This document shows, one piece after another, positions 47,546-51,227 of a stretch of DNA of 64,000 nt. How positions within the stretch are numbered: position 1 is the stretch's first letter; each line of letters begins with the position of its first letter. The translations under genes and the position numbers were made by a program. This stretch comes from an uncultured Fodinibius sp. (GTDB lineage Bacteria; Bacteroidota; Rhodothermia; Balneolales; Balneolaceae): assembly GCA_913056455.1 (NCBI GenBank), contig CAJXMJ010000007.1, forward strand, positions 1-64,000. The letters are read 5' to 3'. The notes below the pieces were generated by a model that was not told the DNA's origin, made no database searches, and saw only the letters and a program-made list of their open reading frames with translations.

Positions 47546-48535
47546 ATGAAAGTTTCCAAATATTTATTATTAGCTGTTATTGTCCTTCCATTGGCTTTAG
47601 CTGGATGCAGGGGTGAGAAATTTCAATCTCAGCCTGTTCATCCTGTTATGGATATGGACCAGCAGAAACGATTCGAGGCACAAGAAAAAAATGAATTCTT
47701 TGCTGATAATCGTGCCATGCGTAAACCTGTTGAGGGAACGATTGCCCGGGGCAACCTTAAAGCAGATAAAGCACTGTACCAAGGTATCAATAAAGACAGC
47801 AGCTTTGTAGAAGAAATTCCTGTTGATGTTACTAAATCCTTTATATATCGAGGTAAAGACCAGTACGAGGTATTTTGCACCCCCTGCCATGGTATAGCTG
47901 GTGATGGTAACGGCATTATTATGGCAAACAACTATGGATATGTACCTGCCCCAAGTTTTCATCTTGATCGATTAAGAAATCAAAGTGATGGCTATATTTA
48001 TTCAACTATTTCCAACGGTATTCGAAATATGCCGTCGTATGCTACACAGATTCCTGTAAAAGACCGATGGGCCATTGTAGCCTATGTGCGAGCACTTCAG
48101 ACAAGTCAAAACGTTTCTGAAGACGAGATTCAACAATATGATGTGGATATTGCTGCACTGGAAGAAGATTATCAAGAAAAGTTAGCTGCGGAACAAGCCA
48201 AAGAAGAAGCACAAGCAGGCGGCGACGGGGGTGAAGTTTCTGTTGAAAGAGGTAAAACAATTGCCCAAAATAATGGTTGCATGACTTGCCACTCTACTGA
48301 TGGTTCGAAGATGGTTGGTCCAACCTGGCAAAATTTATACGGTTCCGAACGAACGTTCGACGATGGATCCACAGCTACCGCTGATGATGAGTATTTAGTA
48401 CAATCTATTGTAGAACCATCTGCAAAAGTCGTAGAAGGATATCCTCCTTCTATGGTTTCATATGACTTTCTGAGTGATAGCGAAATAAATTCACTTGTTG
48501 AGTACATAAAGTCTCTGAGTGAAAACGCTGAATAA
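47546..48535 (+). CDS. actE: Alternative complex III subunit E, lipoprotein cytochrome c with an added second heme domain
   Basis: 329 residues. A lipoprotein signal ends at LALAGC (Cys21). The ActE core holds one heme (CTPCHG, residues 111-115) with the typical sequence after it (GDGNGIIMANNYGYVPAPSFH, then the Met-ligand region NGIRNMPSYATQI). An acidic/alanine linker (about 195-230) leads to a second mono-heme domain, C245xxC248H249 to the end. That second domain is very like the C-terminal cytochrome domain of CoxB (about 50 identical of 81 aligned residues, counted by eye). ActE of well-studied complexes has a single heme domain as far as I recall, so the extension is notable; it could pass electrons straight to the caa3 oxidase. 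Confidence 0.92.
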   Translation: MKVSKYLLLAVIVLPLALAGCRGEKFQSQPVHPVMDMDQQKRFEAQEKNEFFADNRAMRKPVEGTIARGNLKADKALYQGINKDSSFVEEIPVDVTKSFIYRGKDQYEVFCTPCHGIAGDGNGIIMANNYGYVPAPSFHLDRLRNQSDGYIYSTISNGIRNMPSYATQIPVKDRWAIVAYVRALQTSQNVSEDEIQQYDVDIAALEEDYQEKLAAEQAKEEAQAGGDGGEVSVERGKTIAQNNGCMTCHSTDGSKMVGPTWQNLYGSERTFDDGSTATADDEYLVQSIVEPSAKVVEGYPPSMVSYDFLSDSEINSLVEYIKSLSENAE

Positions 48536-48579: not shown

Positions 48580-49764
48580 ATGAGCAAGCCTAAAATAACT
48601 GATACTCTGGAGTTTCCTTCTGATTTGAATGTAACCAAATCATTATTTGGTGTGGGAATTGTTGGCCTTCTGGCTACCGGTGTTGGATATTTTCTGGATC
48701 ATGATCAGTTTTTCTTTTCCTACCTTGTAAGTTTTTCTTTTTTCTCAAGTATAGCACTGGCAAGTTTGTTTTTTGTAATGGTTCAACATCTGACGCGTTC
48801 AGAATGGAGTGCCGTACTGAGAAGAATTCCGGAGACATTCTCATCCTATTTCTGGGTCTGGGGATTATTTATTATTCCCATATTTTTTGGAATGCATTCT
48901 CTTTATCACTGGACGCACGCTGATGCTGTCGCCGCTGATCCGGTTTTACAGGGGAAAGAACCCTATTTGAATACGACATTCTTTATCATTCGTCAGTTCA
49001 TCTACTTCGCTCTCTGGAGTTTCCTTGGATATCGACTCTATTCTAAATCGGTTGAAATGGATGAGACCGGCGACTGGGGACTACAAACACTCCTTCGAAG
49101 AACCAGCGGTCCGGGATTATTTTTCTTTGCCATTACCCTTGCTTTCGCCTCTTTTGATTGGATTATGTCACTTGATCCACACTGGTACTCAACTATTTTT
49201 GGCGTTTATTATTTCGCAATGAGTTTTCAAGGGTTATTCGCCGCCTTAATTCTCGTGATATTTTTCCTCTGGAAAAATGATTTACTTACTAACACCATCC
49301 AGAAAGGACATATATATGATCTGGGAGTCCAAATGTTCGGTTTTACCGTATTTTATGCTTACATCGCATTCAGCCAATTTTTACTGATTTATTATGCAAA
49401 TATCCCGGAAGAAACCGTATGGTATTTAGAACGACTCAGCGGCGGATATGAATATTTAGCATGGTTTTACCTATTTGGGCGTTTTGTAATACCATTTGTA
49501 GTTTTACTCCCGAAAGGGCCAAAGTCCAACCCCAAAATTGTTGGCAGTATGGCCGTATTGATTTTAGTGTCACACTTGGTTGAACTCTACTGGCTTGTAA
49601 TGCCGGTACTGAATCATCACGGGTTCCATCTTAATTGGATGACTATTACAAGCTTTATTGGACTTGGCGGTATCTTTTTAGGCTTATTCTTCTATAAGTT
49701 TAAACAAAATAAAATGGTACCAATTAAAGATCCGAAATTGGGAGACTCTCTTAATAAACATTAA
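48580..49764 (+). CDS. actF: Alternative complex III subunit F, NrfD-like membrane protein
   Basis: 394 residues with about ten membrane helices. It is related to ActC. Key text includes FVMVQHLTRSEWSAVLRRIPE, FIIPIFFGMHSLYHWTHADAV, ASFDWIMSLDPHWYSTIFGVYYFA and YIAFSQFLLIYYANIPEETVWY. With ActC it builds the membrane core of ACIII and is thought to help proton movement. It is followed by the HTH-membrane gene 58 bases later. Confidence 0.94.
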   Translation: MSKPKITDTLEFPSDLNVTKSLFGVGIVGLLATGVGYFLDHDQFFFSYLVSFSFFSSIALASLFFVMVQHLTRSEWSAVLRRIPETFSSYFWVWGLFIIPIFFGMHSLYHWTHADAVAADPVLQGKEPYLNTTFFIIRQFIYFALWSFLGYRLYSKSVEMDETGDWGLQTLLRRTSGPGLFFFAITLAFASFDWIMSLDPHWYSTIFGVYYFAMSFQGLFAALILVIFFLWKNDLLTNTIQKGHIYDLGVQMFGFTVFYAYIAFSQFLLIYYANIPEETVWYLERLSGGYEYLAWFYLFGRFVIPFVVLLPKGPKSNPKIVGSMAVLILVSHLVELYWLVMPVLNHHGFHLNWMTITSFIGLGGIFLGLFFYKFKQNKMVPIKDPKLGDSLNKH

Positions 49765-49822: not shown

Positions 49823-50377
49823 ATGGCTAACGAGAAGCAAAATTATTCTGCTGATTTTAAAAAAGAAGTTGCGCAAAAAGCATTAGATCAGTCCAAGAAG
49901 AATCTGGATAAGCTGTCAAAAAAGTATGATGTCCCAGTTTCTGTTATTCTAATGTGGGCAACAGAGCTCGAAAAAGGTGGAGAAGATGTTTTTGAAACGG
50001 AAGAAGATGAAAACACATCATCCCATGAGCAATCGGATGAAGGTATTAGTGTTGAGGTAACTGATGAACAGTTAGCCGATTCTGTTGAACACGGGGTAAT
50101 GCAGGATAAGCTGAATTACAAACGCCTTATATTTTGGAGCGTTTTTGGAACTACTTTAGTTATAGTATTTGTATGGGGCCTTATTCAAATGTATCAATAT
50201 AACACTGGGGTTACACAAGACCGAGTATCTTCAGAAAGTGAATATTACCAAGTTAATCAGATGAAAAGAGAAGCAACGCAACAACTCGACAGTTTTGGTG
50301 TTGTTGATCTTGAAAACGGTACTTACAGAATCCCCATCGACAGCGCCATTAATAAAATGGCTGCCAATGAAGAATAG
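49823..50377 (+). CDS. Membrane protein with N-terminal transposase-type HTH, in the act-cox operon
   Basis: 184 residues. Residues 8-56 (YSADFKKEVAQKALDQSKKN, LSKKYDVPVSVILMWATEL) read like the IS3/IS911 OrfA-type helix-turn-helix: 'ys.efK.e.v..al......l..ls..ygv....i..W...l'. An acidic linker (57-95) follows, then one membrane helix (about 102-123) and a periplasmic tail ending in SFGVVDLENGTYRIPIDSAINKM. That last motif resembles the (V)(R)IPI(D/E)xAM end of small membrane proteins coded next to Sco and oxidase genes in other phyla; this is from memory. The HTH end would be cytoplasmic. There are no transposon ends nearby, so this is a domesticated domain, not an IS. It may be an assembly factor or the single-helix subunit (ActG-like) of ACIII. 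Confidence 0.75.
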   Translation: MANEKQNYSADFKKEVAQKALDQSKKNLDKLSKKYDVPVSVILMWATELEKGGEDVFETEEDENTSSHEQSDEGISVEVTDEQLADSVEHGVMQDKLNYKRLIFWSVFGTTLVIVFVWGLIQMYQYNTGVTQDRVSSESEYYQVNQMKREATQQLDSFGVVDLENGTYRIPIDSAINKMAANEE

Positions 50378-50387
50378 CTAAACATCT

Positions 50388-51227
50388 ATGAAACATTTTG
50401 GGCTTACAATAGCAGTAATAAGCCTATTCTTACTCCCTTATTCTTCCGAAGCTCAACTGAATCAAAAAAAACCAAGCCAATTGGAAGATGTAGGAGTTGA
50501 AGAACGGTTAGGTGACCAAATACCGCTTGATCTTACTTTCGCCAATGCAAAAGGCGATTCCATAAAACTTAAAGAGTTATTTGCTAACGGCAAGCCGGTA
50601 CTCTTAAATCCTGTATATTATGAGTGCCCACAGCTATGCTCAATGATCAAAGAGGCCATTTTTAAAGGCGTCAAAGATTTAAAATGGTCGCCGGGCAAAG
50701 AATACAATATTGTTACTTTTAGTTTTGATCCCAGTGAAAAAACAGCTTTAGCTGCAGAAAACAGGGAACGTTTTTTAAACAAGTTGGATAGAGAAGGGGC
50801 CGATGAAGGATGGCACTTTCTAACTGGTAATAAAGAAAATATTGATAAACTTACTGAGTCTATTGGATTTAACAAGAAGCGCCTGCAAGATGGACAATAT
50901 GCACACGGCGCTGCTATTATGTTTCTCAGTCCCGATGGTGTAATAACACGCTATCTTTATGGACTCAAATTTGATGAATTTAATTTGCGGAATGCGCTAT
51001 ACGATGCAGCGGATGGTAACATCGGAAGTGCTGCAGAACAAGTATTACTTTATTGTTATCAGTACGATGCGGATTCCAACACATATGTCCCCGTAGCCTG
51101 GAGGATCATGCAGATTGGTGGCTTTGCTACCATGTTAATTCTGGGTATATTCCTCGGTTTTATGTGGTTGCGGCACCAATATTCAAATAATGAAAAGCAA
51201 ATAAAAGAAACGAATGAACGCGATTAG
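50388..51227 (+). CDS. Sco1/SenC-family copper chaperone
   Basis: 279 residues. A signal peptide (about 1-22) is followed by a thioredoxin-like domain with the copper ligands C80 and C84 (YYECPQLC) and H173 (YAHGAAIMFL). It also has a C-terminal membrane helix (about 242-265), so it is anchored with its domain in the periplasm. Sco proteins load the CuA centre of oxidase subunit II. The last 14 bases overlap the coxB start, a tight coupling that fits this role. Confidence 0.94.
   Translation: MKHFGLTIAVISLFLLPYSSEAQLNQKKPSQLEDVGVEERLGDQIPLDLTFANAKGDSIKLKELFANGKPVLLNPVYYECPQLCSMIKEAIFKGVKDLKWSPGKEYNIVTFSFDPSEKTALAAENRERFLNKLDREGADEGWHFLTGNKENIDKLTESIGFNKKRLQDGQYAHGAAIMFLSPDGVITRYLYGLKFDEFNLRNALYDAADGNIGSAAEQVLLYCYQYDADSNTYVPVAWRIMQIGGFATMLILGIFLGFMWLRHQYSNNEKQIKETNERD

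Follow-up and report, generated by a model that had tools for sequence, protein, structure and literature searches.

The locus raises the question of why a protein that resembles a transposase in its first part should be encoded in the middle of a respiratory operon. The window, a 64,000-nucleotide stretch of DNA from an uncultured Fodinibius sp., contains a 184-codon ORF on the + strand, with its ATG at 49823 and its stop codon ending at 50377, which starts 58 nt past actF and ends 10 nt ahead of sco. Use of the ATG at 49823 is backed by close relatives, whose proteins start at the equivalent residue, and the ORF is a real gene. The features of the locus are as follows.

48580..49764, + strand: actF, the upstream neighbour (position, conserved order).
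49823..50377, + strand: actG, predicted single-helix subunit of alternative complex III (ACIII) with an N-terminal IS3 OrfA-type helix-turn-helix (HTH), 184 aa (ORF, homologues, actF upstream, tail profile against 8k9e_G).
49823..49996, + strand: HTH domain, residues 1-58, derived from IS3-family OrfA, with helices at 10-22, 28-35 and 39-59.
49934..49975, + strand: former recognition helix, residues 38-51 (PVSVILMWATELEK), with a hydrophobic exposed face and no K/R directly past Trp45.
49997..50074, + strand: linker, residues 59-84, acidic, of low confidence and fast-evolving (AlphaFold pLDDT, dN/dS).
50117..50197, + strand: single membrane helix, residues 99-125, N-terminus predicted cytoplasmic (hydropathy, flanking K/R counts, model).
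50285..50374, + strand: predicted periplasmic tail, residues 155-184, a hairpin (160-162/167-169) and a C-terminal helix, with the ActG signature motif GVVDxExGxYRIPIDSA.
50388..51227, + strand: sco (SCO1/SenC), the downstream neighbour (Pfam SCO1-SenC, gene order).

An acidic linker, one membrane helix and a conserved tail had been described in an earlier, sequence-only reading of this DNA, and all three were present as judged by sequence, AlphaFold modelling and hydropathy. The AlphaFold model showed a three-helix HTH (H10-22, H28-35, H39-59), a linker in which pLDDT fell below 50 at residues 61-79, and a long helix (residues 99-157, pLDDT above 90 in its first part) followed by a hairpin and a further helix. 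Hydropathy analysis gave one hydrophobic segment, at about residues 101-125. No redox-cofactor motif was present in the protein, which has no cysteine and so no CxxCH. K/R residues were more numerous on the N-terminal side of the membrane helix, which by the positive-inside rule is moderate evidence for an N-in topology; among HTH-bearing proteins they were more numerous before the helix in 43 of 68 and fewer in 5 of 68. The HTH would then lie on the cytoplasmic side.

The identity of the protein was approached through its relatives. A homologue was found in 38 of the 38 relatives searched, and a profile of the membrane-plus-tail core matched 72 of the 74 sampled genomes of the class; the remaining two do possess actC. 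The gene order actF-actG-sco was conserved: actF lay directly upstream (<=400 nt) in 160 of 163 actG loci, and in two of the three loci without it (L063 and L144) the sequence ends upstream of the gene. The 163 loci included contigs of KSB1, Zixibacteria, Neomarinimicrobiota and Deltaproteobacteria. When the core profile was compared with 177,635 PDB sequences, the best match was 8k9e_G, the ActG of Chloroflexus ACIII (E 0.0023), and this match runs through the tail '...HIPIDRAMDLIVER'. YRIPID in the tail is near-invariant. The Rhodothermus marinus ActG has been described as a one-helix subunit that was found by mass fingerprint and had no density in the structure (PMC5928083); a statement that R. 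marinus is without ActG (PMC9316378) is at odds with that report. A 130-aa homologue lies behind actF at the presumed R. marinus locus (L059). On the basis of the gene order, the tail match to 8k9e_G and the R. marinus description, the window gene was filed as actG, and its product is, to judge from these comparisons, ActG, the small membrane subunit of ACIII. It resembles the known ActG of R. marinus and C. aurantiacus (8k9e chain G) in being encoded directly behind actF, in its single membrane helix and in its IPIDxA tail signature. Unlike them it carries an HTH, and it is 184 aa long, compared with 112 aa in Chloroflexus and 130 aa in the presumed R. marinus protein.

Some further observations were made on the act genes. 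In two genomes of family f6 (G038 and G040) actC was present with no detectable actG, and a reduced Balneolaceae genome (G145) had actC and no actG match. The window ActE (47546-48535) is 329 aa long, with two matches to cytochrome c domains; across Balneolaceae ActE has ~328-387 aa, versus ~205-220 aa in Rhodothermus and in most of the order's other families.

The origin of the N-terminal domain was settled only via relatives, because the HTH score of the window protein alone was below threshold, both against Pfam HTH_Tnp_1 (12.6 bits, E 0.16) and against NCBIfam (IS66 TnpA, 15.7 bits; IS3, 12.9 bits). At the family level the match was significant. HTH_Tnp_1 was matched at E<0.1 in 21 of 33 members (best 2.3e-7), two members passed the curated cut-off of 24.1 bits with 29.8 and 26.0 bits, and a genome-wide search with PF01527 landed independently on actG (31.9 and 27.3 bits). 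When the ActG HTH was aligned with IS3 OrfAs by hhalign, the probability was 98.9%, and the 59 aligned columns took in the end motif, conserved Phe included. The OrfAs had been selected for their likeness to the ActG HTH, and this value therefore does not come from an independent sample, whereas the PF01527 matches are independent. In the reverse direction, an ActG HTH profile was searched against the relatives and the class, and outside actG almost all matches at E <= 1e-4 were OrfA-type frames of ~70-140 aa, among them a 12-copy element. The frame of the best OrfA match (L246) overlaps with a gene for a DDE integrase of 280 aa, the arrangement seen in IS3 elements. The remaining strong matches were one 201-aa frame and a PAS-kinase family: in two Balneolaceae genomes, PAS-PAS-HisKA_2 histidine kinases (L252:1480-3147 in G021 and L247:1-1686 in G013) begin with the same IS3-type HTH, which is a second reuse of the domain.

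PF01527 found no match in the window genome at E<=0.01, a plasmid search with the window protein found no match, and a Foldseek fold search of the window model returned nothing at E <0.001. VIA-align of the model reached Z <=5.8 with HTH and homeodomain folds, too low for proof alone. A PDB search with the HTH profile alone placed designed repeat proteins (many sub-threshold stretches) and homeoboxes on top, and these were taken as noise.

A chance likeness to HTHs is ruled out by the family-wide Pfam matches, the reverse genome searches and the profile comparison, and a remnant IS at the site by the lack of terminal or target repeats and by a gene order that is constant across the class. No IS-end-like repeats were found near 49823-50377, as the sequence-only reading had said, and its central claim, that the act-cox operon encodes a membrane protein with one helix and a transposase-type HTH, was borne out by the family Pfam matches, hhalign and the model. 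On these comparisons residues 1-58 of ActG are a separate addition that is homologous to IS3-family OrfA. They align over the whole OrfA HTH (PF01527), including the motif at its end that precedes the zipper. In contrast to an IS3 OrfA, the window protein has no leucine zipper, no OrfB/DDE gene and no IS ends, its neighbours are actF and sco, its recognition face is no longer basic, and the HTH is followed by a linker, a membrane helix and the ActG tail. The sequence-only reading knew of no described function for the combination. No paper with an HTH in ActG was found in a literature search; the membrane part is the known subunit ActG, which that reading had missed. Mobile-element HTHs have been co-opted for gene regulation before (PMC8987985), ActG and the OrfA HTHs are likewise known, and what is new is the HTH-bearing form of ActG.

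Two uses had been offered for the domain, membrane-tethered control of genes and a contact surface on other proteins, and the recognition face bears on both. The exposed positions 39, 40, 41, 43, 44 and 47, assigned as outward-facing from general HTH geometry and not measured on the model, were compared with those of 27 IS3 OrfAs. In the Fodinibius clade they were 65% hydrophobic, 1% basic and 0% acidic, as against 14%, 21% and 2%, respectively, in the OrfAs. A K/R at positions 46/47, after the core Trp, was present in 0/13 proteins of the Fodinibius clade, 24/55 of other Balneolaceae and 26/27 OrfAs, and the net charge of helix 3 was -0.9, -2.0 and +1.3 in the same three groups (rank tests, p 2e-6 and 7e-11, which are indicative only because the compared sequences are related). 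The hydrophobic face of the HTH was near-invariant in Fodinibius, and in Balneolaceae outside Fodinibius the recognition face was mostly acidic. As far as computation on sequence goes, these values show that the basic DNA-reading face has been lost in the Fodinibius ActG HTH. K/R is kept at 46/47 in 24 of the 55 other Balneolaceae, so that DNA contact may persist across the family. The HTH of ActG now probably contacts another protein, not DNA.

It could be that ActG is a membrane-tethered one-component regulator, with a periplasmic tail that senses assembly or redox state and a cytoplasmic HTH that binds promoters. The order of HTH, linker, one membrane helix and periplasmic tail fits such a protein, the HTH shares ancestry with a DNA-binding domain, and most fold matches of residues 1-65 were DNA-binding HTHs and homeodomains, at low Z. 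ToxR/CadC-type regulators have a winged HTH together with a sensor domain. The window ActG is like them in its predicted cytoplasmic HTH, one helix and periplasmic C-terminus; it differs in being a respiratory subunit and in having a simple three-helix HTH whose reading face is not basic. The disappearance of basic recognition residues in Fodinibius (a sequence proxy) also speaks against a regulator, as do the HTH-less ActG that is normal in Rhodothermus and other families of the order and the several sister species that lost the HTH yet retain the operon. Gene control is accordingly disfavoured and considered quite unlikely, the face being uncharged and hydrophobic in Fodinibius and largely acidic in other Balneolaceae where the IS3 OrfAs have K/R. 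The hydrophobic, uncharged face in Fodinibius favours the other use, a contact surface.

The sequence-only reading had also asked whether related act-cox operons carry the gene. The gene is indeed widespread in the class, as the core profile indicated, but the HTH was found only in Balneolaceae, in most though not all members. The HTH is thus an addition specific to this family that has been lost several times, a point which that reading missed. In Salinibacter, Salinivenus, Roseithermus and others the ActG N-terminus consists of ~110-130 aa of other sequence, in the rest it is short, and Rhodothermus ActG has no added N-terminal domain. The long Rhodothermales N-terminus was predicted as a beta-sandwich (pLDDT near 95) and matched fibronectin type III (FN3) structures (126 PDB chains at E<=0.001). 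Loci with FN3-fold ActG are L046-L053, L057, L061, L065, L176, L177, L179-L184, L187, L188, L193 and L195; Pfam barely detects the fold in ActG of Salinibacter-like Rhodothermales. These proteins have the same core and operon place as the window ActG and likewise carry an additional domain in the N-terminal slot, but theirs is an FN3 beta-sandwich and the window's is an HTH. As a set they found Chloroflexus ActG again, weakly (E 0.042), and their K/R counts around the helix were balanced. One FN3-like ActG homologue (L056, genome G115) lies on an 8-kb stretch without a recognisable adjacent actF, and actC of that genome sits on a different contig.

When the presence of the HTH was mapped onto a 94-row tree built from ActF, Sco and Cox2, it required five changes, each of them forced by branches with good support. 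The rows with the HTH fell within a single clade (support 99), and the outgroups were without HTH. One gain of the HTH followed by several losses is the simplest reading, although the tree alone does not separate gain from loss. HTH-less ActGs with short N-termini retain the first residues (e.g. MASEEPTYSSESKAKE), which looks like in-frame deletion of the HTH. A wider reading, advanced here tentatively and as a possibility rather than an expectation, is that ActG is a platform whose cytoplasmic N-terminal slot has been filled in each lineage with an unrelated captured domain (an IS3 HTH, an FN3 domain or nothing), and that each of these brings a cytoplasmic partner particular to its lineage to the ACIII-caa3 respiratory assembly.

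Selection on the domain was assessed between closely related genomes. Between close Fodinibius genomes dN/dS was 0.03-0.14 in the HTH, 0.05-0.10 in the tail and 0.19-0.79 in the linker, and the HTH, with 84-98% identity between pairs, was as conserved as the tail. The Fodinibius HTH is under strong purifying selection. In the Balneola pair L036/L039 the HTH was 57% identical and the tail 97%; the silent difference was also higher in the HTH (0.43 versus 0.08), so that local recombination within the gene may have contributed. With the HTH constrained in Fodinibius and fast-changing in Balneola, the need for it appears lineage-specific. Repeated loss and the fast change in Balneola are what would be expected of a functionless remnant tolerated at a free N-terminus, but the low Fodinibius dN/dS, conservation like that of the tail and not like that of the adjoining linker, and the near-invariant hydrophobic face make this very unlikely.

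One interpretation of these data, held with moderate confidence, is that ActG in a Balneolaceae ancestor captured an OrfA HTH, the face of which was rebuilt into that of a cytoplasmic contact domain. The membrane helix and the periplasmic hairpin-helix tail, the conserved part, would attach ActG to the edge of ACIII. The actG N-terminus would have gained the HTH from an IS3-family OrfA, with neither the leucine zipper nor the IS, and DNA reading would have been given up as the recognition face became hydrophobic in Fodinibius and mostly acidic in relatives. As a small helical domain the HTH would now make protein contacts, most likely with ActC/ActF at their cytoplasmic face or with a partner complex, and may stabilise ACIII itself or the association of ACIII with the caa3 oxidase. 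A docking place could be offered by the small domain that ActC and ActF, both of which end in the cytoplasm, form there (PMC5928083). Both the protein-contact role and its partner are inferred; the role is supported by sister lineages, in which the corresponding slot is occupied by FN3, a fold that commonly serves in protein binding. Against it, the HTH is dispensable, as its several losses within Balneolaceae and its fast evolution in Balneola indicate, and the lack of density for R. marinus ActG suggests that attachment to ACIII may be loose.

That same map, in which density was absent although peptides were detected (PMC5928083), would also suit an ActG that is mainly an assembly or insertion factor, acting with Sco on ACIII or the caa3 oxidase and holding an assembly partner in the cytoplasm through its HTH, rather than a stable subunit. 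The gene adjoins sco and cox genes throughout the class. However, the entries for Chloroflexus ACIII include ActG as a resolved chain, and in Chloroflexus the photosynthetic operon contains actG but no cox genes (PMC3150298); such a role is considered unlikely.

A DNA-binding domain of transposon origin has apparently been remodelled into a structural component of an energy complex, and the kept, relaxed and lost states of a co-opted transposon HTH are visible within one family. A previously unassigned gene family is now tied to a respiratory subunit that has a name but is poorly understood, and the signature GVVDxExGxYRIPIDxA finds ActG in other phyla. If the partner of the HTH were found, it would reveal how ACIII is organised on its cytoplasmic side.
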